Assembly: GCA_019359435.1 (NCBI GenBank)
Contig: JAHHHI010000059.1
Span: 62,001-126,000 of the forward strand
Length of the DNA stretch: 64,000 bases
From: Kaiparowitsia implicata GSE-PSE-MK54-09C
GTDB lineage: Bacteria; Cyanobacteriota; Cyanobacteriia; Elainellales; Elainellaceae
Direction of reading: 5' to 3'
Shown: positions 14,632 through 29,597 of the stretch, piece after piece
Layout: the number at the start of each line of letters is the position of its first letter
How positions within the stretch are numbered: position 1 is the stretch's first letter
Position numbers and translations under genes: made by a program
Notes under the pieces: generated by a model
Told to the model about the DNA's origin: nothing
The model's input: only the letters and a program-made list of their open reading frames with translations
The model's database searches: none

Positions 14632-17094
14632 TTAGCGTCCCAACGCTTTGGCATACGCCGCATACAGGCGCTCTAGGTAGCGTTCCATCGTGTAGCGCTG
14701 AGATTGTTGAGTGCCTCGCTCGGCCAGCTGATCGCGAAGGGGGCGATCGCCCATGAGGGTTTCGATTTTGTGTTTGAGGTCATTTACATCATAGGGATTG
14801 ACGTAGAGCGCTGCATCCCCACAAATCTCTGGCAGGCACGACACGCCGGAGGTGATCACCGGGCAGCCCAGCCGCATGGCCTCGACAGGGGGCAGCCCAA
14901 ACCCTTCATACAGCGAGGGAAACACCAGCGCGTAAGCGCCCTGATAGAGATATTTGAGATTCTCTGTGGGCACATATTCCAGCAGTTTGACCTCGCGGCG
15001 CGAGTCGCGGTCAAAGAGATAGCTCATCTTCCCAAGCTCATCTTCCCAAGCCCAGGCTTTTTTGCCAACGATCACCAGCGGCATATCGGTGTCGAGGGTG
15101 GCATAGGCTTCGAGCAGCCGCCCCACATTTTTCTTAGGCTCGATGGCTCCCACAAACAGCAGATAGCGCTGATAGTCGAGCCGATAGCGCTTGAGAAAGT
15201 TGCCAATGCCCAGCGCATCGACCGGCAAGGGTTGCAGCGAGACCGGCTGGTAGGTGACATGAATGCGGTCGGGATCGGCGTCAAAATAGGTGAGCAGGTC
15301 TTTCTTGGTATTTTCTGACACGGCGATGATCACCGCCGAATCGTCAAGCGCATTGCGGATTTTGCCGTAGAAATCTTTCTTGTTGTCTAACGTGGTGTAG
15401 GGCAGGCGCAAGGGAATTAAATCGTGGATGGTGGTGATTTTCTTTGTTCCCTTAATCCGCATGGGTAGGGGATAGGTGACATGCCAGATATCCATCGGCT
15501 CTGATAAGTGAATGTCGGTGATGCGATCGAGCAGGCTAAAGGAAAAGTTGGCGATTTCGTAGCAGCGCGGCAGGTTAAAAGACTGGGCATAGCGGATGAA
15601 GTCTGCCCCGTATTTGCCTTCCTTAAGCACTACGTCGCCAATGCTGTCGCGCCGCCACGCCCGGTAGAACGGCCCGGTATAGGACTTGAGCATCCCCTTT
15701 AGAAGCCCGACCAGCTCAATCACAATGTTTTCTTTGTGGAACTGTTTGTCAAAAAAGAGAATTTCGTCTAGCACGCGATCGCGCTTATTGCTGTTGCGCC
15801 CGAGCAGCACATCCACCTGCGCCCCGAGGGTTTGCAGCGCTTTTACCAAGGTGGCGCTATAGGTTTTGATGCCGGTGCCGTCTGCCAGTTGCAGGTTATA
15901 CCCATCCACCAAAATCTTCACGTCTTTGAGCTTGTGCTCCCACTCGGCCAGATTGGGGCCGGGGGCTTCGACCAACGGATTGAGGGCGATCGCCCGTGTT
16001 GAGTCTCCCCGGATGGCGCCCGTCAGCTCCCGGTCGTTTTCTGCCACTACCACGTTGCGCCAGGTAGAAGTTTCGCCCGTTTGGTCAAAGGTACGCACGA
16101 GACCGGGGATGCAGATGGTGAATAAATTACGCTTGGTGACAGATTGGGGTGCCCAGGCGGTGATCCACCAATCCTCATCTGCCCCTTGGCCGTGTTTGCG
16201 GCCTACGGGCTTGGGCGCGCCTAGGTATGGGGTCGGAATGGGCAGCACGCTGCGCCAATAGTCACGGTGGGCGTGCAGATGAACGCCGGGCATGGAGCGC
16301 TTAAGCAGCACTTCGTATCCGGCGATCGCCCCGTTGCCATAGGTGCGGTGTTCTGCCGCGTCGCGTCCCGTGAGCAGCGGGCGCTCCACCGGGTCTTGCA
16401 CCTCGGCATAGACCCGAAATAGGTCAGGATGCACATCCACATCATCCTGAAAGTAGGAGATCCAATCCACGTTGGGATCGGCCAGCCAGTAGCCTAGTCC
16501 GGTGTTGATGGCATTGGGCAAGCCTCGGTTTTGGGGCAGGGCAATCAGCGGCACGCCGTGTTCCTCGGCAATGCGCCGATTTTCGGCCTGGTGTTCTGGG
16601 TTAGAGGCGTCGTCGATCACCACCACCGGAGCCTCGAGGGCAAGGATCTGGGGGAGCGATCGCGCCAACCCCTCAGGTCGGTTGTAGGTGGTGATAACGC
16701 TGGCAAACCGGGGTGCCGTTTGCTGGGCGTGATGGAGTGTGGCGATCGCCTCTGCCTGATCGAGCAGCGCCTGCACATGCCCCTGCTGCACCGGCGGCAC
16801 ACCCTCTGGCACCTGCTGGGCATAGATCACAAACACCGGATTGGCAAACACCGGCTGAAACGCCTCCATCACCGCCAGCAAAAACGGCGGCTCTACCTCA
16901 TGCACCATGCCCTTGTGCAGCACCACAAACCCAAACATCTGCGGCGGCAGCGCATAGGTGACGTTGTAGTGATAATTCTGCGGAAAAAACTCCATGAATT
17001 CGTTCGGCGCTAGGATCGCATCCGTCGGCTGCGTCCAGTCCTTGAGAAAGTCGCGCGTTTCTGTCCAGAAGTCGTCATCGAGCGGAAAAGGCAT
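14632..17094 (-). CDS. Bifunctional glycosyltransferase, GT2 fused to GT4
   Basis: The 820-residue protein has three parts. Residues 1–125 are a leader domain of unknown function ([20 protein letters not shown]). Residues about 130–350 are a GT-A domain ([22 protein letters not shown], and FQDDVDV at 215–221). From about 395 there is a GT-B family 4 domain ([46 protein letters not shown]). The sugar-nucleotide EX7E-type motif [12 protein letters not shown] lies at 729–740. One polypeptide could thus make two successive glycosidic bonds. It is the last gene of the minus-strand glycan cluster, 131 bases after its neighbour, and it lacks the FWKLR tail found in other members. Confidence 0.9.
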
Positions 17095-17225: not shown

Positions 17226-19169
17226 CTAATCGTTGACGGGTAATCCCAGTCGGTGTTTAAGCCGAAACCAGGCGGTGCGGAGTTTCCAGAACTTGCTGGA
17301 TTCCATCGCTGCAATGCGACTGAGGGCATCGTGCAACTGAGTCGCAGAGGCCCCCGGTTGAGAATGCGCTGGGTTGAGCGGCTTGCCCGGAACAATCTCT
17401 TGCTGCCAAAACAAGAGTTCTAGGGCGCGGCGTTCTGCCTGAACCTGCTCTGGAGACGGGGACGGGGCAAAGCTGGCCGCGGCGGTAAGGCTGGTGCTAA
17501 AGCGGACGGGGGCAACCTGCACCGCGTGCAGCAGGCAGTAGAGCCAGTAGAGATGGTTGAGTCGGGGGTCGCAATCGCCCCACTGGTTCAACACTCGCGC
17601 CGGAAACAACCAGGCGCACTCGGGCGCAGGCGATTCCAACTGCAGCAGCGCATCCACCCTAAAGGGATGATAGAACAGCGCTGGCATTGCCTCTTCTGCC
17701 GTTCCTCTGGATATGGCACCGGAGTAGAGGATGGGTTCGTCTGCGGCGGTTTCGACGATCTGCATCGCCGTCGCCACATGGTTGGGATACAGCACATCCC
17801 CCACCTGCATCAGCCCAAAATAGTCGGTGTTGATCTGAGGAAAGAGATGCCAGAGTTGACTGCTGTGATACCCACAGTCTGGTAATAACTGAGCATGGAT
17901 TGTGAGTGGTGCAGCCTCATCGACTTGAGCAATCTCGGCAATTTTTTGGTGGATTATCTCGAACTCGTCGGGCTCGCGAGTGCCAATAATTGCATGACAG
18001 TTGGAGTGAGTTTGCGTGGCAAGGCTGTGGAGCGATCGCTCCAATCTGTCAGAAAACGGTTCGGGCGATCGCCCCTGATTCACCATGACAAAACTGACTG
18101 ATTTCGGCTCAGATTTCGGCTCAGATTTCGGCTCAGATTTCGGCTCAGATTTCGGCTCAGATTTCGGCTCAGATTTCGGCTCAGATTTCGGCTCAGACTT
18201 ATGTTCAGAAACAGTGGCGGATAGCGGTGCAATAAAGCCCCGTTTTGAAATCACCGCCTTGTGCAATTCTGCCAAGCCAAGCAACAGGGCTTCCAGCGTA
18301 TAGCGTTCAGAAAAAATGCGATGCGCCTGCTCAGACATCGCCCGTGCGTTGTCTGGATGGGCGGCAATCCAGGCCATGTGTTGAGTGATGTGCTGCACCT
18401 GATCGAGGGGCGTGGCATCGGGATCAATATAGAGCACCGAGTCCCCAAAGGCTTTGCGAATAAAGGGATGCTCGCCACAGAGGGCGATCGCCCCCGACGC
18501 CACAATCTCAAAAATTCGCATGGATGGAACGGCGGCTTGGCGATGTTCTGGGCGATGCAAGCACAAGCCCACACCCCCTTGATGGAGGGCTCGCAGGACA
18601 CTTATCCCATCAAAGGGCAGTGTTCCCCGGTAGGCCTGTTGCAGAAACGTCCAGCCCTCGGGCTTGCCGTAAATATCAATATAGGGCTGACGGTCTAACT
18701 GTTGAAAAAACTTGAGAAAGCGATCGCCATCCCAGTTAGACCCAAAATAAACTAAGCGCGGTTTGTCTAATGTTAAAGCTTGATAGTCTGTAGCAAAGCA
18801 GCTTGTAAAAAACGGCGTTTTTAACAATGGTTTTGGAGTATTCAGCAGGAGTCGATACAGCCAGTCTTCGATCACTGGCGATGACACCAAATAGCCGTCA
18901 TAGGTCAGCACATTGCGCACTGCATCGTTTACACCTTCAAAGAAGCTCGGCGGGTTCCACATGCAGCCATAGGTGGGAAATTTCCACGCTTTATAGCTGT
19001 TGTTGTGAAGTGCTAAGACGCAATCTGGCTGATAGGCATCAATGTCTGATTGACGTCGCCATTCTGCAGCCTGCCAGCCTAGGTTTTTGGCGGCAATGCA
19101 GATGCGACTTGCCAATTCTGACTCGGCAAACCAGGTTTCAGCAAACGGATTGTGCAATGCAATTCTCAT
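17226..19169 (-). CDS. Two-domain glycosyltransferase with KSEP tandem linker
   Basis: The 647-residue protein begins with a GT-B/CgeB-like half: RIALHNPFAETWFAESELAS, RLVYFGSNWDGDRF, and VPSMRIFEIVASGAIALCG for donor binding. An eight-fold KSEP repeat (residues 324–355) links this to a degenerate GT2-like half. That half shows VSFVMVNQGRSPEPF, SLATQTHSNCHAIIG and FGLMQVGDVLYPNH, and no clear DxD. The chain ends with the shared tail AAMESSKFWKLRTAWFRLK (about 620–640). Its start overlaps the stop of the upstream gene by 4 bases (ATGA), so the two are translationally coupled. The second half may be a binding module rather than an active enzyme. Confidence 0.85.
   Translation of the reverse strand: MRIALHNPFAETWFAESELASRICIAAKNLGWQAAEWRRQSDIDAYQPDCVLALHNNSYKAWKFPTYGCMWNPPSFFEGVNDAVRNVLTYDGYLVSSPVIEDWLYRLLLNTPKPLLKTPFFTSCFATDYQALTLDKPRLVYFGSNWDGDRFLKFFQQLDRQPYIDIYGKPEGWTFLQQAYRGTLPFDGISVLRALHQGGVGLCLHRPEHRQAAVPSMRIFEIVASGAIALCGEHPFIRKAFGDSVLYIDPDATPLDQVQHITQHMAWIAAHPDNARAMSEQAHRIFSERYTLEALLLGLAELHKAVISKRGFIAPLSATVSEHKSEPKSEPKSEPKSEPKSEPKSEPKSEPKSEPKSVSFVMVNQGRSPEPFSDRLERSLHSLATQTHSNCHAIIGTREPDEFEIIHQKIAEIAQVDEAAPLTIHAQLLPDCGYHSSQLWHLFPQINTDYFGLMQVGDVLYPNHVATAMQIVETAADEPILYSGAISRGTAEEAMPALFYHPFRVDALLQLESPAPECAWLFPARVLNQWGDCDPRLNHLYWLYCLLHAVQVAPVRFSTSLTAAASFAPSPSPEQVQAERRALELLFWQQEIVPGKPLNPAHSQPGASATQLHDALSRIAAMESSKFWKLRTAWFRLKHRLGLPVND
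18106..18201 (-). repeat. 12-bp tandem repeat encoding KSEP units
   Basis: The plus-strand unit GGCTCAGATTTC is repeated perfectly seven times from 18106 to 18189, followed by a diverged copy to 18201. On the coding minus strand each unit is AAATCTGAGCCG, giving Lys-Ser-Glu-Pro. Because the unit is a multiple of three, copy number can change without a frameshift. The near-perfect DNA identity implies recent expansion by slippage. Confidence 0.95.
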
Positions 19170-19858
19170 GCATTTTGCGGCAGCTGTTGATAGGTTGGTT
19201 CAGCGTGAGGTGCGATCGCAGCCTGAAATGAAAGCGTTGTAATCGGATTGGGAACCTGGTGCTGAAGGTGCTGTAAATGGGCGTGATGTTCTGAACACAG
19301 GGGAATTTTGCAAATCACAATGAGAGCCGTTGAACTTAGCTCATCAGCACTAATCACTTGGCCCCATGTCCAATCCTGTTCCATCATAATGGGCGTGAGT
19401 TTGGGTGCTGTAGCGTCTGGTTGCAGGGGGTGAATTAGATCGCGCACGACCTGGCGCTCTTGGGGGTTTCCCAAGAGTAGAATGGTGTTGGTCTGACTGA
19501 GTCTCTCTAGGGCATCCGCTGTAGATGAGGACGGAGCGACAGAGGGCGATCGCCCCTGTTGCGATGCGGCGTCAGCAAAAATTCGATCGATTAAGAAATG
19601 GCGCTGTTCTTCTAGGGTTTGAGAGACATGAATCGACGACTGAAGTAAGAATGAATCGTTCTCGAGCTGCGCCGTAATATAGTCATTAATGCGGTGGAGG
19701 AGGGCTGTGTTTTGCTTAGCCGAGTGACCGACTAAATCGATCTTGTGAGACAGTTCATCTTGCTTTAGCTGTTGATGGTCGAGCTTGACATAGAGCCCAT
19801 CCAGCTTATTCAAGAATAAGTCTTTAATTGCTTTGAATCGCTGAAAGATTTGAGCCAT
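19166..19858 (-). CDS. Coiled-coil protein of unknown function in the glycan cluster
   Basis: I do not recognise the family. The 230-residue protein starts with a helical, heptad-like stretch (residues 1–100: FKAIKDLFLNKLDGLYVKL, LKQDELSHKIDLV). A Ser/Pro linker carrying a HIP1-encoded GRSPSV follows. The second half is small and alpha/beta-like (TNTILLLGNPQERQVVRDLI, TALIVICKIPLC). There is no signal peptide and no membrane helix. It lies between two glycosyltransferases, 47 bases after one and overlapping the next by ATGA. It could be an adaptor that pairs with the enzyme translated after it; this is inference from position only. Confidence 0.75.
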   Translation of the reverse strand: MAQIFQRFKAIKDLFLNKLDGLYVKLDHQQLKQDELSHKIDLVGHSAKQNTALLHRINDYITAQLENDSFLLQSSIHVSQTLEEQRHFLIDRIFADAASQQGRSPSVAPSSSTADALERLSQTNTILLLGNPQERQVVRDLIHPLQPDATAPKLTPIMMEQDWTWGQVISADELSSTALIVICKIPLCSEHHAHLQHLQHQVPNPITTLSFQAAIAPHAEPTYQQLPQNA

Positions 19859-19905
19859 AATCTGTTACGTATTGCGAGAGCACTGACAAATGAAATAGCA
19901 CGGAT

Positions 19906-21948
19906 CTAAGCTGGGTGCTGGGCGATTAATGCTTCAAATCGATCGTCTGCTGGATGCCCTTGTTCGAGCGATCGCCATAGCCAATCTGCCAGATCATCGC
20001 AGGCAAAAGTTGCTGCCATAGCGGCACAGCGTTGCCGAATCTGGGTTTGCACCGTTGGGTCACAGACATACGCTACAGCCTCTGCAAAACTGTTTGCATC
20101 GTAGCTGCAAACGGTTCCGAGTTGAAATGTCTCTACAAAATGCGCCGCAGCACTATCCCGACTGCCCATCACAATAATCGGGAGATGCGCCGTTGCCAGC
20201 GTGAAAATCAGGCGCGAGGGCAAGCTCAAACGCGTCACCTCGGGGAGATCATCGGTATCGTCTAGCATTCCCGTTGGCATTAGGGTAAACGGGTAACGAT
20301 GCAGCAGTAGCCGCAACTGACTGCCCGGTTTTTCTGACTGCACCCTAATGCCATCTGCGTCTAGGTCTGCGGCGATCGCCGGAGTTCGCCCAGGGTTAGG
20401 ATGCCAGTCCACGGTCAACCCGGCTTGGCGGAGGGTTGTTCTCAACGCTTTCAGCCATGCGGCACCCCACACGTTGCCAATCAAAACGCCCGTTTTTTCA
20501 GCCAGATAGTGGGGGTCTACCGAGTGAGGCGTGGCCCGAATAAATGCGGTGGGTAAGGTGGGGGGTGCAAACCAGATGGGACAGTTGAATTTGGCTTGAT
20601 AGGCGGCTCGCATTTCAGGAGAAATGGCAAGTCGAAGGTCTGATTTTTGTAGGAGTTCCTGCATTAAATCATCTGGAATAATCGACGAATAAATATTGTG
20701 ATCATCCATGAGATAGGTGCAGAGCGGCACATCAAACACATCAGAGAGGGCGATCGCCAACTTCACATCTTCAATCAAATAAGGAATGCAGAGAATGCGT
20801 CGCAGGGTGCTGCCGTTTAACACCCGCAGTAAGAGTGCACAAATCTCTGATTTCGCAAGCTTTGTCAGGCGAATGAGGGCGCTATAATCCCCGAAATCAT
20901 GATCGCCTTGATAGGTATCGCAGGTTCGGAGCGACAATAGATTTCTATGATTCTCAAAGATTCGCCGCAGCAAAATTCCCGTACCGTGCTGCTGATTCAT
21001 CTCGTTATAGGTGATGACCACATCGACCTGATGAAGCGTGGGCAGAATGGGGGCATTCACCTGATTTGATCGAATGAGCGATAAGAGAGAATGGCGTAAT
21101 GCTTGATTGCGCTGAAGTGAAATTTCAGCAGATTTGTTCGGCGGGAGTAGCGGCAGTGTGGATGTACTCGATGTGGGACTATTGACGGCAAAGTACCATT
21201 TCTCATTGAGATCGATCACCATCTCTTGAAGCCGCGAGATGCGCCGATTTAGCCACGATTCTGTTTGATACAGGCCTAGGGTCTCTTGGGCTCGAAACAC
21301 CTCTTTTAAGGAGAGCGATTGAGCAGTGCCGGATAAACCCTGATTCGAGAATGACGAAATAGTGCGTGGGATGTAGTGAATGGCGATCGCCCCATGCTGA
21401 AGCATCCGCAAAAACCATTCATAATCGGCTGAAATCCGATACGTTTCATCAAATAACCCGAGAATAGAAAACAACTCGCGTTTGAAGAAACTGGCAGGGT
21501 GTTGCGGCCCATCGACATAGAACATTAGGGCCTCAGCGATGGCCTCGGGCGGTTTTGGGACTTTGATTTCGAGGGCGTGCTTGCCTCGTCGCACTTCTAA
21601 ATTGCCGTAGAGAAAGTCGCAGTTAGATTGGCTTTGAATAAAGGTAACAACATCCTGAATGACGGCTTGATCTTTTAGATAGTCATCTGAATTTAGAAAG
21701 TATAGATAGTCGCCTGTGGCTACCTGAATTCCCTTATTCATGGCCTGATAAATGCCATCATCGGGTTCACTAATCAGATGATGAATGTGAGTGGAGTAGC
21801 GCTGAGCGATGTCTAGTGTGCGATCGCTCGATGCACCGTCTACTACGATATATTCAATGTCGCCATGGGTTTGAGCCACCACACTTTGAATGGCGGTTTC
21901 AAAGTGGTTTTCAGCATTTCGACAAACCGTAATAATCGAGATTTTCAT
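19906..21948 (-). CDS. Glycosyltransferase: GT2 domain plus GT-B-like domain
   Basis: Residues 1–230 are a well-preserved GT-A domain of the colanic-acid WcaA/E-like kind: MKISIITVCRNAENHFETAI, EYIVVDGASSDRTL, SEPDDGIYQAMNKGI and LYFLNSDDYL. After a helical linker, about 290–680 looks like a GT-B fold (VDVVITYNEMNQQHGTGILL, CTYLMDDHNIYSS, LSLPSRLIFTLATAHLPIIV). Start ATG 21948 was chosen because MKISIITV is the standard opening; an upstream in-frame start at 21999 would add 17 unlikely residues. It follows the GT4 gene by 57 bases. It has no FWKLR tail and ends in ordinary helix. Confidence 0.88.
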   Translation of the reverse strand: MKISIITVCRNAENHFETAIQSVVAQTHGDIEYIVVDGASSDRTLDIAQRYSTHIHHLISEPDDGIYQAMNKGIQVATGDYLYFLNSDDYLKDQAVIQDVVTFIQSQSNCDFLYGNLEVRRGKHALEIKVPKPPEAIAEALMFYVDGPQHPASFFKRELFSILGLFDETYRISADYEWFLRMLQHGAIAIHYIPRTISSFSNQGLSGTAQSLSLKEVFRAQETLGLYQTESWLNRRISRLQEMVIDLNEKWYFAVNSPTSSTSTLPLLPPNKSAEISLQRNQALRHSLLSLIRSNQVNAPILPTLHQVDVVITYNEMNQQHGTGILLRRIFENHRNLLSLRTCDTYQGDHDFGDYSALIRLTKLAKSEICALLLRVLNGSTLRRILCIPYLIEDVKLAIALSDVFDVPLCTYLMDDHNIYSSIIPDDLMQELLQKSDLRLAISPEMRAAYQAKFNCPIWFAPPTLPTAFIRATPHSVDPHYLAEKTGVLIGNVWGAAWLKALRTTLRQAGLTVDWHPNPGRTPAIAADLDADGIRVQSEKPGSQLRLLLHRYPFTLMPTGMLDDTDDLPEVTRLSLPSRLIFTLATAHLPIIVMGSRDSAAAHFVETFQLGTVCSYDANSFAEAVAYVCDPTVQTQIRQRCAAMAATFACDDLADWLWRSLEQGHPADDRFEALIAQHPA

Positions 21949-22005
21949 ACCAATCCAGGCCGCAAATCGTTCACAGCATACCGCGTAAGCGGAACCCAAA
22001 TGACG

Positions 22006-23616
22006 CTATTCATCAACCGGCAACCCCAGCCGTCGCTTGAGCTGAAACCAGCGCGATCGCAATAGCCAAAACTTACTAGTTTCCATTGCGGCAATGCGCT
22101 GCTGCTTGGCTTCCAGTTCTGTGGCTAGCACTTGAGCTTGCTTTGCTAATTGCTTGTAGTGATTGGCCTCTTGCATGAGGGAATGCATCAACATGGACTG
22201 ATACAACTGCCCCACCGATGCCCCCATTGAGAGGTCTAAGGGAGCGATCGCCCCAAGCTCCCTGTCAGATCTGACGCCCACTTCCGTCGCTGCCTGTTCC
22301 ATCGGTTTTTGGGGTCTTGTTCCGGCAGGTATCACGGGCAATGGCGGCGTATGGCGTTTTAAATCGCCATATAACTCAAGATAGCGCTTCGACTCTAGCG
22401 GAGCGGCATAGTTTAGCAACATGTGCTGGCGGCACGTCTCTCGCATTGCCTCATATTGAGTCGGGTTGATGGCGCAGTGAATGATTTGCTGGCCCAACTG
22501 CTCAAAATTGCCAAAGGGAATCAGCCAGCCCGTCTGCTGATGCTGAATGGCGTCGGGCATACCGCCCACACCAAACGCCAGCACCGGGGTGCCACAACTC
22601 ATAGCCTCCAGCATCACATTGGGCAGGTTGTCTTCAAAGGAGGGCAGCACCAGCACATCTGCAGCGGAATAGGTCTCGATCAAGTCCGCTGGGGTTGACT
22701 TCCAGCCCAAATGCACGTGGGGAATCGGGAATTGCTCTAGCTCTGGGCAAGGTCGCCCATAGACGAGCAGCGTGATTGCGTTGCGGGCAATGAGTTGAGC
22801 CATGTCAGGATGCTGCGCGCACTGTCGCAGAGTCGCCAGCAAATCGGCAAAGCCCTTCCGAGGTTCGGGTGTACTTTGGGCAACCAGGGTAAAGGTCTCG
22901 GGCGCAATGCCCAGTTGCCGCTTTGCCTCGGCCTTGGGAACAGGCGCAAACAGCTCCGTATCCAGCGCATAAGGAATCACCTCCACCCGACACTGCTGAA
23001 ACACGCGGCTGTGGCGAGCACAGTCTGCTAGCCAGCGGCTGGGGGTAACGATGGTGAGGTTACGAAAGCGAGAAACCTGTTCGAGTTTGTCCTGCAAGGT
23101 TGCCGCAGGCAACGCAAAGGGATCATCTCGCAACTGAGGGCATTGGGCACAGGCTTGCTCAAACCCATTGCATCCTGCGGTGTAATGGCAGCCCCCGGTA
23201 AACGGAGCCATATCGTGGAGTGTCCACACGACGGGCTTGCCCAGCGTGAGCAGTTTAGCAAGGGTCGTGGGTGACTGAAAGGCGGCGACCCAGTGCAGGT
23301 TGATGATATCGGCCTGCGTGACGGTGTCTAATCGAGATAAGTCAAATCCAGGGTAGGAAAAGGAGAAATATGTTCTGGAACGAGCCGTCCGATTTTGGTT
23401 GAGATATCGCTGCTGAATCGTAGCCCAGGTCGGTTCATTTAATGCCACTTCAGTGTTTTGAGTGGACACAGACTGCACAGTGGGGTTGTCTGACGCCTTC
23501 CATCGCACCAGCAGCGTTGAATCTTGCCCCAGTGCCACCATCCCCTGATGCAGTCGGTAAGAGGCGATCGCCGCACCACCAGAAATATCGTAGGTATTAA
23601 CCTGAGCAATCTTCAT
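22006..23616 (-). CDS. Family 4 glycosyltransferase with coiled-coil and FWLLR tail
   Basis: The GT-B enzyme opens with MKIAQVNTYDISGGAAIASYRL. It contains the metal-like motif WTLHDMAPFTGGCHY with a Cys-rich loop (CNGFEQACAQC), the donor segment FEDNLPNVMLEAMSCGTPVLAF and a normal C-terminal Rossmann fold. This subgroup commonly acts in exopolysaccharide assembly. After about residue 430 there is a low-complexity stretch, then a coiled coil (YKQLAKQAQVLATELEAKQ). The shared tail AAMETSKFWLLRSRWFQLK closes the chain. The tail's DNA differs from the other copies, so it is not a recent duplication. Confidence 0.9.
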   Translation of the reverse strand: MKIAQVNTYDISGGAAIASYRLHQGMVALGQDSTLLVRWKASDNPTVQSVSTQNTEVALNEPTWATIQQRYLNQNRTARSRTYFSFSYPGFDLSRLDTVTQADIINLHWVAAFQSPTTLAKLLTLGKPVVWTLHDMAPFTGGCHYTAGCNGFEQACAQCPQLRDDPFALPAATLQDKLEQVSRFRNLTIVTPSRWLADCARHSRVFQQCRVEVIPYALDTELFAPVPKAEAKRQLGIAPETFTLVAQSTPEPRKGFADLLATLRQCAQHPDMAQLIARNAITLLVYGRPCPELEQFPIPHVHLGWKSTPADLIETYSAADVLVLPSFEDNLPNVMLEAMSCGTPVLAFGVGGMPDAIQHQQTGWLIPFGNFEQLGQQIIHCAINPTQYEAMRETCRQHMLLNYAAPLESKRYLELYGDLKRHTPPLPVIPAGTRPQKPMEQAATEVGVRSDRELGAIAPLDLSMGASVGQLYQSMLMHSLMQEANHYKQLAKQAQVLATELEAKQQRIAAMETSKFWLLRSRWFQLKRRLGLPVDE

Positions 23617-23784
23617 GTAGCTGTTACTAATACAAACGAGGCGAGATACCGCTGAGGAATTTACACCTCATTACTACCACAAGGCGGAGCCTAACCCTAC
23701 CAAAATTCTGGCGTTTTTGCGGTAGCTTAGTTATTTAGGAGCGACTTGAGGGCGATCGCCCATCTTAGTATTCTCAGTCTCAGC

Positions 23785-25536
23785 CTACTGAGTAGTCTTG
23801 AGCCCTAACCTAGTACACAACGTGAACCAGGCATTCCGTAGTTTCCAAAACTTGCTGTTGTTAACATCCTCAAGTTGGTCACTAGCGAGAGAGAGTTTTG
23901 ATTTTAACGTTTTGACCTTAGCACGCATCTGCCGCAGATTTTTTCGGGTCTCTTGCAGTTCTCTGCGAATGTCGGATGAGGTGTTTATATCAAGCTCTCG
24001 CGCTTGAAGCTGTTGCAATGCGGTCATCAGCATATAAATCTGGCGCTTTGTCCATTTTTCGGGCGGAATTTCTGCCAGATATTGCCGTAGGTAATAGCGC
24101 TCCTTTGACCACACGGCATCTTGAATCATGGAATCATGACGCATGCGGTACTCATAAAGGGGATACGGGTAATGCACGATCGGTTCACCCGTGGCGATCG
24201 CCGCTGCCAAAATGCACCAATCGTGAGTCTTCCCATCCTTGCGCGCAGGATGGCGAAACCGTTTCAAAAATTCAACCTTAAATAGAGAACACGCATCGCC
24301 GATCTCATTACTCTGCAAAAGTTGCGCAACTGAGGTGTATTTAAAGTTATAAACTCCATCGGCCTTGCCAAAGTGCAGCATGGACGAAACAATCACAGAA
24401 GCACCCGAAGAACAAGCGGCTTCAACGTACTTTTCAACCGAGAATGGCATCAGACGATTGTCGGCATCTAGGGGTAAGAAATAGTTCCCTGCGGCCATTT
24501 CAATCAGTGCATTACGCGCATTTCCTAAGCCTAAATTTGCGTCTGCGCGGATGAACTTAAAATTAGGAAATAGCGATTTTGCCTGCTCAATGTAGCTAAT
24601 CGTTTCAGGTTCTGTAGAGGCATCGTCTAACACAATCACCTCTAGATTAGAGTAGGTTTGTGCTTCTACGCTCACCAGGCAGTCAACTAAATAGCGGCCA
24701 AGATTATAGCAGGTAATACCGATTGTGACTCTTGGCTTATCTATGACGTGAGTTGGGGTTCGCTGAAACGCATTTTCAATGAATGATATTTTGCGGGCAA
24801 ATAAGTCTTTGTTAACCTGAACTAGCGCTTCTCGCCCGACCACTTCAACGGTCTCAGGATAGGCGGCGATCGCCTTGCTCAGCATTAATGCCAGGGTTTC
24901 TGAATCGGCAGGTTTAAACCAATACACGCCGCTGGTGCGCTGCACCAATTTCAAAGTCTCTCGAAACCCGCCTGTGTCTGACACCACAAGAGGCGTGGGC
25001 AATTGCCCCATCTCCAATGCACTATTTGGGAAGTTTTCCTGATGGCTTGTTAGGCAGACAATCGGCTGGTGGAGTCGGCGAATGAAGCGAATGGCATCGC
25101 GACTAAAAAACTCTGGATAGAGGGTATATTCAATTGGGCAAGCATCAGGATTTAGCTCTTCTTGCACATACTGGTCGCTATTCATTGCGCCCATGCGTGA
25201 CTTGTGGAGCTGCACTACTTTGCCCACAAAGTGAATATGGAGAGTATTTCGCAACTCTGGATCGAGCTGCTTTAAGGCCTCTACAAACGTGCAAATCCCC
25301 TTTCGCATTTCCAATCGCCCAAAAAACACGATGGGGATTTTCTCAGGATCAACCTCCATAGAGTCAGGGTCTTGAGCCTTCGGATCTTGCTTGGATATGC
25401 TTGATGACGGCACCTTTGTCAGATGTGAGGCCATCACCCGAGAATTCAAACCTTCAGGCGCATCAGAATCTGCAACGTTTGGGTCTAATGTGGAAGCATC
25501 ATCATCCAATGCGTCTGCATGTCCAGTCGTTGTCAT
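23785..25536 (-). CDS. C-terminal half of a GT4 glycosyltransferase fused to a GT2 domain, with FWKLR tail
   Basis: ATG at 25536 (an upstream TTG at 25566 is possible) begins about 65 acidic, low-complexity residues. The protein then enters directly in the middle of a GT-B enzyme: IPIVFFGRLEMRKGICTFVE and HQENFPNSALEMGQLPTPLV, which are the donor-binding half. A full GT2 domain follows (VTIGITCYNLGRYLVDCLVS, VIVLDDASTE, NYFLPLDADNRL). A coiled coil and the tail VNNSKFWKLRNAWFTLCTRL end the chain. The missing N-terminal GT-B half is encoded by the next gene upstream (25669–26487), so the two are best read as one enzyme split in two. Confidence 0.85.
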   Translation of the reverse strand: MTTTGHADALDDDASTLDPNVADSDAPEGLNSRVMASHLTKVPSSSISKQDPKAQDPDSMEVDPEKIPIVFFGRLEMRKGICTFVEALKQLDPELRNTLHIHFVGKVVQLHKSRMGAMNSDQYVQEELNPDACPIEYTLYPEFFSRDAIRFIRRLHQPIVCLTSHQENFPNSALEMGQLPTPLVVSDTGGFRETLKLVQRTSGVYWFKPADSETLALMLSKAIAAYPETVEVVGREALVQVNKDLFARKISFIENAFQRTPTHVIDKPRVTIGITCYNLGRYLVDCLVSVEAQTYSNLEVIVLDDASTEPETISYIEQAKSLFPNFKFIRADANLGLGNARNALIEMAAGNYFLPLDADNRLMPFSVEKYVEAACSSGASVIVSSMLHFGKADGVYNFKYTSVAQLLQSNEIGDACSLFKVEFLKRFRHPARKDGKTHDWCILAAAIATGEPIVHYPYPLYEYRMRHDSMIQDAVWSKERYYLRQYLAEIPPEKWTKRQIYMLMTALQQLQARELDINTSSDIRRELQETRKNLRQMRAKVKTLKSKLSLASDQLEDVNNSKFWKLRNAWFTLCTRLGLKTTQ

Positions 25537-25668
25537 AGCTTCGCCCACACCCACAACCAACGTCAATCAACTCGCGTATTATATGGCAAATGGTCGCCGT
25601 TTTTTCTTTACTTAAGCGTATGAGCGATCGCAACCAACGCTAAGACTTTAGGAATTAGCTTGCTGGGA

Positions 25669-26487
25669 TCAACTAAGCACTGAAATTGGCGAAGATGATT
25701 CTAACGCCTCTAAAGCCTCCAAAGCCTTGGAATTGTCTTCTAGAATTGGTATGAAGTAAGGCATGTGAATTGATTCTGAGACATCCCAGCCATATGCATC
25801 TACGCGCGATCGCAAATGATAGGACGGGAAAAAGGCTAGATCGGCATTCTCAAAAGAAAACTGTTCAAAGTTGATTAATTCGAGAAACATATTCTGATAC
25901 TCTTCTGCGAACCATTCATTTGCTTCATAAATCCATTCATGACCGCTATGCATCGTGACTGCAACTGCAACGTTCTGATCTAAAATTCCACACTTTTTTG
26001 CTAGTATTGTTCGAGCGGCAAGGCCATTCATTTCATGAAACTCGACGTAAATCTTAGATGCTGGAAAAAGGTTCTCGATAGCCTGCACAAAAAATAGCGA
26101 AGAATAACCATCGCGGTCAACAAATGAATAGTAAGATGCGGCCTTAAGAATGGATTCATGAATTGGTTGAAGGTTTAGCACTCTTGGCAACTCGCCAACA
26201 CCAAAAATGTGCTTTAAACAGGGGATATCAGACTCGCCCTCAAAATCTTGTTGAGAATTACATACCAGCAGGATGACATACCATCCTTGCTCTGCCAGAT
26301 GCTCACTCAGCGTTCGATAATACGTGCCGATTCCGCCATTTCGATAAATGCCTTCGAATTCGGTCGTAATCATAAGGGCAATATTTTGAGGATTCTCAGC
26401 TTGTAAGCGTGTCGCATACTCAAGCTGAAACCCGAGGTCTAAGTTTTTTTGCGACAAAAGCTTGATGAATGTGTCCTGCTTTACCAT
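25669..26487 (-). CDS. N-terminal half of a split GT4 glycosyltransferase
   Basis: The 272-residue protein contains the acceptor-side Rossmann half of a GT-B enzyme. It has the opening glycine motif (YRNGGIGTYYRTLSEHLAEQ) and VYVEFHEMNG-like and AVTMHSGHEWIYEANEWF segments, and it stops after the hinge region (HMPYFIPILEDN). The donor-binding half is absent here and starts in the gene downstream at 25536. Both genes end or begin in low-complexity acidic residues (ALEALEALESSS here), as if a linker had been opened. The gap is 132 bases with stops in it, so a single frameshift does not explain the split. Function would require the two proteins to associate. Confidence 0.8.
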   Translation of the reverse strand: MVKQDTFIKLLSQKNLDLGFQLEYATRLQAENPQNIALMITTEFEGIYRNGGIGTYYRTLSEHLAEQGWYVILLVCNSQQDFEGESDIPCLKHIFGVGELPRVLNLQPIHESILKAASYYSFVDRDGYSSLFFVQAIENLFPASKIYVEFHEMNGLAARTILAKKCGILDQNVAVAVTMHSGHEWIYEANEWFAEEYQNMFLELINFEQFSFENADLAFFPSYHLRSRVDAYGWDVSESIHMPYFIPILEDNSKALEALEALESSSPISVLS

Positions 26488-26595
26488 ATCACTTCATTAA
26501 ATTAGATCTATTGCTCTAACTATGCAATTGTTGCACTTGAAGGAGCAATGTGAATACCCTGTATTCTATAGTCAAAGCACTCATCCACCAAATAA

Positions 26596-27828
26596 TTAAA
26601 GACGAATTAGGTTTTTGACGAACTCTTTGAGTCTCCAAGCGCGGCTTGACTCCATCTTGGAAATCAAATGATTGAGGCGTTGAATTCGTTGATTTTTTTG
26701 CTGAAGTCTTGTTCTGAGAGTTTCATTAAATTGCTGGCATCCTTTTAGCCGATGTCCAAGAGCGTCGATCTTCTCAGCTGAAACAACCACGGTTTCAGAA
26801 AGCCCTTCCATTTGCTGCAGCTGATGTATATAACTTTGAGTCTGGTTCTTTTCCAACTCTAACGCTTGGCTCGCTAACTGCAATTGCTCTTTTAAGCCCT
26901 GAATTTGTGATTTTAAGTCCTGAACCTGTGATTCTGAGTCCTGAACTTTTGAGAGGAGATTTTTTTTTTGTTTTTCTTGGCTGCGAAGGAGCATCCAGTC
27001 TTGAATTAGCCATGACTGAGTTTGAGAGGCTAGAGACTTAACTAAACTCAGACTTTTATCTTCGTAGCCTGAAACTTCGTTCAGATCTTCATAGAGTCGG
27101 ATGGCTTCAGGAAAATAGGTATTCATGAGGGCGGGGCGCTGCGACGTAGAGACGCTCTGGTTTAATAAACCGGGCTCCCAAATTTCTTTGTTGGGAGCGT
27201 GCAAATTGATGCTCAAGTGATTGCTGATCAGTGAGACTATGCGTTCTGGATCGTCAATGACTTGATTAAGGTGAACCAGTAATGATTTCTCTGGAAACTG
27301 GCGGCAAAATTTTATTAACCGGCGATTGTAGCTAGTCCAGACATCGATCGCAAACTCTGGATTTTCTAAAAAGACCCCATCTCCACGCCGATAGAGGGAA
27401 TCTATAACCTCCCAGGGCTTCCGATATATAAAGAGAAAGCGTGCAGTGGGCAGTTGAGACTCCCAAAAATTTAGAAAGAGTGTTGTTCGAGGCTCCTTCC
27501 AACCCCAAGGCTGCGTCTTGGATGAATTAGTTTGAATAAGCTGATGAGCTTTGTCGAGAAATTGTATCGGAACCTCGATCTGCTCTTGAATCGTCCAGCC
27601 AAATTTGGAAATCCCTTGGGCCTCCAGAAGACGTTCATGAAAGGCAAGAAACTCAACATTCTCAAAGTATCCTCTCGGGTTCTCAGGCCTCGCCTCTAGT
27701 AGGTGGCGACCAATGTCAAGCCCGGCGCTTTGCAATAAAGCGGAAAAAAAGGACGTTCCAGAGCGATGCATCCCGGTGATAATGACAGCTGGCTGTGCCG
27801 TGTCTAATGTTGGCGCCGTACCTTCCAT
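26596..27828 (-). CDS. Sulfotransferase family protein with coiled coil and WRLK tail
   Basis: The N-terminal 260 residues match PAPS-dependent sulfotransferases. The 5'-phosphosulfate loop is ITGMHRSGTSFFSALLQSAG; ENPRGYFEN and GWKEPRTTLFLNFW follow; FLFIYRKPWEVIDSLYRR carries the 3'-phosphate-binding Arg. It probably sulfates a glycan made by the cluster. A long coiled coil (QDSESQVQDLKSQIQGLKEQ) leads to the tail SKMESSRAWRLKEFVK, a variant of the tail on neighbouring glycosyltransferases. It is the first gene of the minus-strand cluster. The DNA is visibly more AT-rich than the flanking housekeeping genes. Confidence 0.88.
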   Translation of the reverse strand: MEGTAPTLDTAQPAVIITGMHRSGTSFFSALLQSAGLDIGRHLLEARPENPRGYFENVEFLAFHERLLEAQGISKFGWTIQEQIEVPIQFLDKAHQLIQTNSSKTQPWGWKEPRTTLFLNFWESQLPTARFLFIYRKPWEVIDSLYRRGDGVFLENPEFAIDVWTSYNRRLIKFCRQFPEKSLLVHLNQVIDDPERIVSLISNHLSINLHAPNKEIWEPGLLNQSVSTSQRPALMNTYFPEAIRLYEDLNEVSGYEDKSLSLVKSLASQTQSWLIQDWMLLRSQEKQKKNLLSKVQDSESQVQDLKSQIQGLKEQLQLASQALELEKNQTQSYIHQLQQMEGLSETVVVSAEKIDALGHRLKGCQQFNETLRTRLQQKNQRIQRLNHLISKMESSRAWRLKEFVKNLIRL

Positions 27829-28775: not shown

Positions 28776-29597
28776 ATGCTTTGTTTCGCTATTGTGAGTC
28801 AGCAGCGATCGGGGACTCATTTCTTGACGCATTTGTTGAATACTCATCCAAGCGTCCATTGTTTTGGGGAGGTTTTAACGCCACATGATTATGATTTTAC
28901 CTGGCATTCATTTATAGAGCAACAAACGCTTCGTCATTATCCACCCAATCTAGCTGCGGATGCAGATGTGCTCGTTAATGACTTTTTTGAATATCTTATT
29001 CAATTGGTGCCTGAGCAGAAGAGAGAGCAGCTTACTGCCGTTGGAATTAATCTTAAGTACAATCAGCTTCGGTTCTTGCATCCTATTTGCGCGCGTTTGT
29101 CTTCGGACTCTGTTTATCTGGCTGACTGTTTTGTCAGAAATGATATTCGTGTGATTCACTTAGTTAGAAAAAACGTGATTCATGTAGGTATTTCTGATCA
29201 GATTGCGTCGGCCAGGAATGTTTGGCATCGTCATGGTGATGCCACTATTGACGGTCAATATACGATCAACATTGCGTGGCTGTTGCAGATGGGCAGAGAA
29301 ATTATTCAAGATAGGGAGTATTTCAAACGACTTCTCAAGCAGGGGGAAATGTTTGAGGTTTTCTATGAGGAGCTTAATCATTTAGTGAACGAGGATCAAG
29401 AGAAGCTGCTGAATGCCCAAGAATTGAATTTACTTCAGCAATTGGCAGAGTTTATTCTGGTTGATCCGAGCTTTCAGCGCCCTACTACTATCAAGAAGGT
29501 GATTGATCGTCCCTATGCTGATTTGATTGAGAACTATGGTGATGTTGTAGATGCGGTTCGTGATTCTGAATTTTCAGAGTTTGCACTCCAGCTTTGA
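28776..29597 (+). CDS. Stf0-like sulfotransferase
   Basis: The 273-residue protein begins MLCFAIVSQQRSGTHFLTHL, the PAPS 5'-phosphosulfate loop, followed by NTHPSVHCFGEVLTP as in Stf0/LPS sulfotransferases. VIHLVRKNVIHVGISDQIAS is the 3'-phosphate segment, with the usual catalytic-domain helices after it. Start ATG 28776 has an AAGG about 10 bases upstream. It is transcribed away from the glycan cluster and is AT-rich with rare-looking codon choices compared with neighbours, which suggests horizontal acquisition. The likely substrate is a surface carbohydrate; glycolipid is also possible. Confidence 0.82.
   Translation: MLCFAIVSQQRSGTHFLTHLLNTHPSVHCFGEVLTPHDYDFTWHSFIEQQTLRHYPPNLAADADVLVNDFFEYLIQLVPEQKREQLTAVGINLKYNQLRFLHPICARLSSDSVYLADCFVRNDIRVIHLVRKNVIHVGISDQIASARNVWHRHGDATIDGQYTINIAWLLQMGREIIQDREYFKRLLKQGEMFEVFYEELNHLVNEDQEKLLNAQELNLLQQLAEFILVDPSFQRPTTIKKVIDRPYADLIENYGDVVDAVRDSEFSEFALQL

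Follow-up and report, generated by a model that had tools for sequence, protein, structure and literature searches.

A Short C-Terminal Tail Shared by Unrelated Glycan Enzymes in Cyanobacteria and Its Resemblance to the C-Terminal Region of WbdD

Introduction

For most pathways it is still an open question how soluble glycan enzymes reach the membrane and meet one another. LgtC shows a basic and aromatic C-terminal stretch that is thought to touch the membrane, a feature of one enzyme family. Among the closest described systems is WbdD, whose C-terminal region has an amphipathic helix at the membrane and recruits the polymerase, according to the portions consulted of PMC3447403 and PMC11231755. 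The same portion of PMC3447403 describes WbdD 1-600 as obtained in large amounts and the full-length protein as hard to solubilize, and in the consulted part of PMC3482155 WbdD trimerises via its C-terminal helix. This work concerns a C-terminal tail of about 20 residues on glycan enzymes encoded in a 64,000-nucleotide stretch, the window, of the cyanobacterium Kaiparowitsia implicata GSE-PSE-MK54-09C (contig C59, positions 62001-126000, of a 6.7-Mb genome), which was scanned over its whole 64 kb. The tail is a real, mobile module, independent of the catalytic fold; it is apparently undescribed, with a plausible known counterpart in WbdD.

Results

A Common End on Four Enzymes of One Cluster

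Three glycan enzymes of the window share the end S-K-F-W-x-L-R-x-x-W-F-x-L-x-x-R-L-G-L, almost identical over 23-27 residues, and a sulfotransferase of the same cluster carries a divergent form. Their features are:

17226..19169, minus strand: 647-amino-acid glycosyltransferase-like protein (Glyco_trans_1_2) with a KSEP repeat linker, tailed
17229..17309, minus strand: tail of the 17226 protein, AMESSKFWKLRTAWFRLKHRLGLPVND
22006..23616, minus strand: 536-amino-acid GT4 glycosyltransferase (family match and AlphaFold2 model), tailed
22081..22221, minus strand: long helix predicted ahead of the GT4 tail, residues 466-512 (AlphaFold2 model)
22009..22089, minus strand: tail of the GT4, AMETSKFWLLRSRWFQLKRRLGLPVDE; a predicted helix, 515-529, starts just past Ser514
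23785..25566, minus strand: 593-amino-acid protein with the C-terminal half of a GT-B fold plus a GT2, tailed
23788..23868, minus strand: tail of the 23785 protein, DVNNSKFWKLRNAWFTLCTRLGLKTTQ
26596..27828, minus strand: 410-amino-acid sulfotransferase (Sulfotransfer_3), tailed, with long predicted helices 273-340 and 344-409
26599..26661, minus strand: divergent tail of the sulfotransferase, SKMESSRAWRLKEFVKNLIRL

The catalytic parts differ according to family models: Glyco_trans_1_2 glycosyltransferase-like, GT4, a GT-B half plus GT2, and Sulfotransfer_3. A six-frame scan of the window with S[KR]xWxL[KR] returned these four tails and no others. The tails of the 17226 and 22006 proteins are identical at 19 of 27 residues, with identical codons at 7 of those 19; since shared residues are encoded by different codons, the likeness is attributed to selection on the protein and not to recent copying. 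The original prediction had four proteins ending alike, each after a coiled or helical stretch. All four tails are where it placed them and three are strong, but the sulfotransferase form is clearly divergent; long helices are predicted ahead of the tail in the GT4 and the sulfotransferase, but the helical stretch ahead of the tail in the 17226 protein is short. The sulfotransferase tail is also clearly weaker in searches: a 68-row profile built without it (see below) matches it only at a lenient single-protein threshold, and does not match it genome-wide at E<=0.001. Matching the window tails to profiles that contain them is circular, and the E-values so obtained were left unused.

Two neighbouring genes of the same genome (contig C77, 97258-98615) show divergent tails, KASRFWQWRSVWLQFKQRL and QRSKLWPVWLRWQRIKQRLG, and one of them encodes a methyltransferase. 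A loose DNA pattern gave 68 matches in this genome against 65 for a reversed-pattern control and was dropped as noise. Concerning the carriers themselves, a run of KSEP repeats (Lys-Ser-Glu-Pro) connects the two halves of the 17226-19169 protein, and the GT-B fold seems to be split over the open reading frames (ORFs) 25669-26487 and 23785-25566, a homologue (L135:7389-9761, 791 amino acids) aligning as a single longer protein; a frameshift, a true split and a sequencing error are the candidate causes.

Distribution, Position and Carriers

With a profile built on the three strong tails, 30 of 36 same-family genomes gave a match at E<=0.1, the genome of the window included; one of them, G022, reached no better than E 0.08. 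Together with the window, twenty fetched regions of 16-20 kb gave 69 copies in 67 ORFs. At E<=0.001 per genome, the resulting 68-row profile (alignment A3) found the tail in 65 of 291 genomes from the phylum, again with the own genome included, which corresponds to 42 of 113 genera and 125 places; at most 26 candidates were scored per genome, which makes 65 of 291 a minimum. A pattern with SKFW at its end, run against genomes of 84,980 species, gave 309 confirmed places, and the best 80 of these 309 yielded 76 loci, all titled cyanobacterial. Across both sets and the window, the profile found the tail in 96 of 97 loci, with 229 copies in 222 ORFs, or 198 unique copies once overlaps were removed. 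Seven copies with no clear anchor (SKWW and SKCW, for instance) were left out, which gave 191 tails, a set in which percentages for the motif come out too high; leaving out four with gaps or unknown letters gave 187 for the helical moment, and leaving out five with a short catalytic part gave 186 for the identity comparison. Locus L214, nearly the same as L205, was excluded from alignment A5.

The tail had been described as C-terminal, which holds for most copies: of the 198, 154 are within 12 residues of the C-terminus and seven at 13-60 residues, but 37 are more than 60 residues inside, some of them between two enzyme domains. Internal copies being common, a free C-terminus is not needed. 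Some proteins show two tails, either far apart in fusions (L081, L086 and L180) or in tandem, about 51 residues apart at one C-terminus (L121, L122, L124 and L169).

Among the matches listed (25 of 47 families), the 67 scanned proteins, four of the window and 63 fetched, show 28 GT2, 18 class-I methyltransferase, 18 Glyco_trans_1_2, 13 glycosyltransferase group 1 and two FkbM domains. These enzymes use cytoplasmic nucleotide-sugar, S-adenosylmethionine or 3'-phosphoadenosine-5'-phosphosulfate donors. Twenty further places of low score (E 3e-11 to 8e-4) contain a tailed ORF in 19 cases, 25 ORFs in total. Seventeen of these 25 were scanned: 12 are glycosyltransferases, methyltransferases or sulfotransferases, five have no family and, apart from one generic coil model, none of the 17 shows another function. 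Among these 17 the profile did not hit random cytosolic proteins, the outcome that would have told against the original prediction.

Independence From the Enzyme Families

Tail identity across different loci is 0.563 for pairs with unrelated catalytic parts (14,428 pairs) and 0.562 for pairs with related ones (2,607 pairs), with overlapping loci of one contig counted as different loci. Unrelated pairs of the same locus show 0.582 (137 pairs), inside the permutation range, and homogenisation of the tails within a cluster was rejected as not significant.

A search of the 291 genomes for GT4-domain homologues, made regardless of tails, gave 63 places, and 30 loci were examined. The tail is missing from 28 of the 30, and 27 of these 28 stop at most 25 residues past the domain; the gene of the window is one of the two tailed loci. 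The sulfotransferase subfamily, with 37 places in the 291 genomes and 30 loci examined, shows the tail in the fetched stretch of 22 loci, window included. The spacer varies in length, with 22-474 residues separating the tail from the end of the matched sulfotransferase domain. In three more loci (L270, L272 and L273) the sulfotransferase extends past the fetched DNA and an equally long open frame on that contig is listed with a tail, and the remaining five appear to have no tail. The tail is also present on 10 of 11 homologues of the 17226 protein, the other being cut, and on seven of seven of the 23785 protein, from loci chosen for having tails. That the tail forms a separate module, as first proposed, is borne out by its presence on several enzyme families, by the untailed GT4 loci and by the identity comparison.

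The tails of the four window proteins are covered by no Pfam or NCBIfam model that passes its cut-off; the only overlapping matches are sub-threshold and of coil type, ATG14 for the 23785 protein and CENP-F, RecN and others, at E 0.0007 or worse, for the sulfotransferase. A PDB search with the 68-tail profile returned no entry covering the tail, its only matches being to coils (E 5.3 and 9.3). Within the open-licence PMC text, which leaves subscription journals outside its coverage, no paper was found that prints the tail motif strings, and the papers listed on the topic name none.

Conservation and Structural Models

In the 68 A3 tails the Ser, the Phe and the first Trp are invariant, and the Arg is present in 67 and the second Trp in 66. 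The 25 lower-scoring tails keep the Ser in 22, the Phe in 19 and the Trp in 24. Part of this conservation comes from the SKFW-based profiles or the SKFW pattern by which the tails were found. The tail is strongly basic, with a net charge of +5.65 per 18 residues, and has 4.1 aromatic residues per 18, and a hydrophobic transmembrane stretch at the C-terminus, of PEP-CTERM or tail-anchor type, is not found in this consensus. The stretch ahead of it is charged and poor in proline and glycine, proline making up 1.24% of the 45 residues ahead of the tail versus 4.59% of the catalytic parts; coil was judged here from composition and helix prediction, with no coiled-coil predictor.

The AlphaFold2 model of the GT4 (mean predicted local distance difference test score, pLDDT, 83; eight sequences) shows the catalytic fold to residue 422, a disordered linker at 428-455 and a helix at 466-512, followed by a break at the conserved Ser and the helix 515-529, with pLDDT 76-83 there. 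The conserved Ser at the start of the predicted helix looks like a helix cap. The model of the sulfotransferase (mean pLDDT 79; 13 sequences) places the helices 273-340 and 344-409 past the catalytic domain.

Neighbouring Genes

Wzt_C (PF14524) is the carbohydrate-binding part of glycan ATP-binding cassette (ABC) transporters. It is found in 77 of the 291 genomes: 51 of these are among the 65 with a tail and 26 among the other 226 (odds ratio 28, p 1e-24, uncorrected for phylogeny and genome size). Of the 125 tail places, 53 lie within 20 kb of Wzt_C; conversely, a tail is present within 20 kb at 30 of the 59 best Wzt_C places and at none of the 59 weaker places, the chance expectation over all 118 being 0.76 (at 5.5 Mb per genome). 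Where a Wzt of 400 or more amino acids was considered (n=31, in loci chosen for tails), the gene that follows it on the strand is tailed in 23 cases, a sulfotransferase in seven and both in two. Within 4 kb of Wzt_C there are 22 of the 37 sulfotransferase subfamily places versus three of the 63 GT4 family places.

In the loci of the same family, 68 proteins of the 154 untailed neighbouring ORFs were scanned and, among the matches listed (25 of 87 families), two show ABC_tran. Some multi-pass membrane proteins occur among these neighbours, so that exporters other than ABC_tran are possible. Three untailed genes of the window lie in or beside the cluster:

14632..17094, minus strand: 820-amino-acid GT2 plus GT4 protein, candidate core polymerase
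19166..19858, minus strand: 230-amino-acid protein, with short homologues adjoining the 17226 homologues in two relatives (L119/L073 and L127/L076)
28776..29597, plus strand: second sulfotransferase, beside the cluster

Homologues of the 820-amino-acid dual-glycosyltransferase protein, 50-72% identical, are beside tailed genes in 11 of 19 fetched family loci.

Proteobacterial Counterpart

The original prediction had a coil-plus-tail ending on proteobacterial glycan enzymes, and such a form, [ST]-x-S-W-R-L-T-x-P-L-R, was indeed found on the same kinds of enzymes. The evidence comes from searches of plasmid records and from reading 22 chosen proteins in fetched loci; beyond near-identical records, the proteobacterial matches are mostly at E 0.02-10 (two at 7e-4) and were hence judged by annotation and reading. 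Sixteen of the 22 proteins contain [ST]-x-S-W-[RK]-[LIMV]-[TS], preceded in 15 of the 16 by a proline-free stretch of 30 residues, and six, such as the Rhizobium glycosyltransferase of L217, do not. The 16 comprise sulfotransferases, methyltransferases, FkbM and DUF1698 proteins, glycosyltransferases and one hypothetical protein, and in eight of the 16 motif-bearing loci the fetched stretch contains ABC transporter genes.

In Escherichia coli HS, a 708-amino-acid protein adjoining the O9-family wzt and wbdA genes shows SRSWRMT at residue 592 and, from its place and length, is taken to be WbdD. An Enterobacter plasmid encodes a 425-amino-acid methyltransferase adjoining O8-family wzm/wzt, with SRSWRIT at 308, taken as the O8-type WbdD. 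Both motifs are 116-117 residues from the C-terminus. A Klebsiella pneumoniae glycosyltransferase of an O-antigen export cluster ends, after a helix-like stretch, in a terminal SLSWKVTRPLR. The proteobacterial form also occurs in cyanobacteria: in two operons it is on a methyltransferase (SRSWKITAPLRW and SKSWKITAPLRW) beside genes with the SKFW form. The cyanobacterial and proteobacterial profiles align in register with an hhalign probability of 77.7 and E 1.9e-5.

One plasmid search returned 44 records, the query's own included: 26 are annotated as sulfotransferases, methyltransferases or glycosyltransferases, 18 as hypothetical or with no feature, and none as another kind. Another search returned 27: 14 such enzymes, 10 hypothetical or unannotated, and three others (a dihydrolipoyl dehydrogenase and TraC twice). 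A typed proteobacterial consensus gave three weak E. coli plasmid matches (E 9), pointing to locus L200, whose own tail as query returned 18 records, nine near-identical and nine at E 4-7. Of the latter, five are on annotated glycan enzymes and four are featureless, and one of these four, H17, is the remnant of an open reading frame, interrupted by stops and located between glycan genes. At L200 itself (E. coli plasmid pEC81-2, 6616-9354) a methyltransferase has a coil-like stretch of great length and carries its tail internally; the gene belongs to a polysaccharide export cluster on the plasmid that includes ABC transporter genes.

Discussion

The likeness to the spot at the end of the WbdD coil, the many kinds of enzymes that carry the tail and the company of glycan exporters together indicate that it probably holds enzymes together at the membrane. 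On balance, and by analogy with the C-terminal region of WbdD, we favour a docking peptide at the end of a spacer that would place glycan enzymes at a membrane assembly site. WbdD, the terminator of the O9, O9a and O8 glycans, would be the model: its coil is a molecular ruler, and its membrane end has the amphipathic helix and recruits the polymerase WbdA. The tail would then be a transferable peptide in which a coiled-coil or helical spacer ends, a foot that keeps its enzyme in place where assembly occurs and rests on lipid or on a protein receptor. The link to the ABC transporter pathway and to WbdD was not part of the original prediction. We infer membrane contact, complex formation and that the cluster of the window works in this way.

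Several results weigh against this reading. The tail was expected to be aromatic, basic and amphipathic, and the first two properties are clear, but amphipathicity is weak: the helical moment of the 187 tails averages 0.310, only slightly above shuffled tails, which average 0.282 with a top mean of 0.316. In the sulfotransferase model there is no helix break, the tail continues the second helix, and pLDDT is low in the last blocks (70 and 59). The motif at 592 is part of WbdD 1-600, which was obtained in quantity; it is therefore not enough by itself to hold WbdD at the membrane, and residues downstream of it matter in that protein. A Wzt_C match is absent from 14 of the 65 tail genomes, and the cluster of the window has no Wzt_C nearby, the one match of the genome being on contig C78. 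Finally, in a permutation control of the profile alignment, coil plus tail is borderline (two of 200 permutations score as high) and the tail alone is not significant (69 of 200). Since this control leaves homology open, the claim is limited to the same place, the same company and probably the same role for the tail and the WbdD motif, and does not extend to proven common descent.

Among the other explanations, the one that fares best, possible though unlikely, is that the tail is a specific protein address, S-K-F-W-x-L-R-x-x-W being read by one receptor conserved in the phylum, such as Wzm/Wzt or a core polymerase, with membrane contact secondary. The residue-specific conservation of the 68 tails seems to exceed what a lipid-binding helix would need, there is no significant code specific to each cluster, and the untailed dual-glycosyltransferase protein recurs beside tailed genes. 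However, the conservation is partly built in, which slightly lowers the standing of this explanation, lower-scoring tails depart from it, most often at the Phe (19 of 25, compared with 22 for the Ser and 24 for the Trp), and no companion is present in all clusters: the dual-glycosyltransferase protein is in 11 of 19 loci, and the 14 tail genomes with no Wzt_C match count here as well.

A clamp at the end of the coil, in which tails of different enzymes pack together into a mixed coil bundle and need no other receptor, is distinctly improbable. It would agree with the helix-break-helix at the spacer end of the GT4 model, with tails interchangeable between enzymes, with the tandem tails of four loci and with the trimerisation of WbdD through its C-terminal helix (PMC3482155, consulted in part), but a charge of +5.65 per 18 residues would be odd for self-packing, and the 17226 protein has little coil.

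It is very hard to maintain that the tail is an ordinary part of each enzyme family, alike by chance or by common descent of the enzymes. The sulfotransferase subfamily, tailed in 22 of 30 loci and apparently further on in three more, and the nearly always tailed homologues of the 17226 and 23785 proteins, from tail-chosen loci, go in its direction; it is contradicted by 28 of 30 GT4 loci with no tail, so that the tail is not part of its own family everywhere, and by a tail similarity independent of catalytic relatedness, and the same tail is on glycosyltransferase, methyltransferase and sulfotransferase families. A secretion or sorting signal, which a short conserved peptide within 12 residues of the C-terminus in 154 of 198 copies might recall, is equally implausible, with no hydrophobic anchor stretch, with 37 copies more than 60 residues inside, some between enzyme domains, and on carriers that use cytoplasmic donors.

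Returning to the spacer-end docking peptide, a wider proposal can be made, as a tentative one that is more doubtful than the docking itself. One address tag in cyanobacteria and Proteobacteria would mark enzymes for ABC-exported glycans, and an enzyme that gains the coil and tail would join a membrane assembly line; the sulfotransferase of the tailed subfamily that adjoins wzt in many cyanobacteria, in the place of wbdD in E. coli, would be the chain terminator, its sulfate end cap stopping the chain and being read by the carbohydrate-binding domain of Wzt. If true, the tailed sulfotransferases beside wzt make a concrete prediction: sulfate-capped glycans in cyanobacteria. More generally, a tail of 20 residues recognisable in sequence would mark the enzymes of one assembly complex, would carry the WbdD findings beyond terminators, to complete sets of glycosyltransferases and modifying enzymes, and would give a small handle for bench tests.

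Comparison With Known Systems

WbdD has in common with the tailed proteins a catalytic enzyme, a coil and a motif at the coil end, S-R-S-W-R-[MI]-T in WbdD, and the architecture of a coil followed by the motif is present in the GT4 and sulfotransferase models, where long helices precede the tail. The WbdD gene adjoins wzt, and so do tailed genes in many relatives, though not in the cluster of the window. The differences are that WbdD continues for about 116 residues beyond the motif, whereas the cyanobacterial tail has about 20 residues; that the cyanobacterial tail can be on several enzymes per cluster, whereas the WbdD motif is on the terminator; and that WbdD is a kinase/methyltransferase chain terminator, whereas the tailed proteins of the window are glycosyltransferases and a sulfotransferase, with tailed methyltransferases in relatives. 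In the K. pneumoniae terminators ORF7(O4) and ORF6(O7) the coiled coil is a ruler and a membrane-associated scaffold; the part of PMC11231755 consulted mentions cyanobacterial orthologues of ORF6(O7)-N and describes no shared tail motif for the two terminators. In Campylobacter jejuni PglH, a basic amphipathic ruler helix attaches the glycosyltransferase to the membrane, which recalls the role proposed here, but that helix is alpha-2 of the GT-B fold and not an add-on tail (PMC5792488, in the sections consulted).

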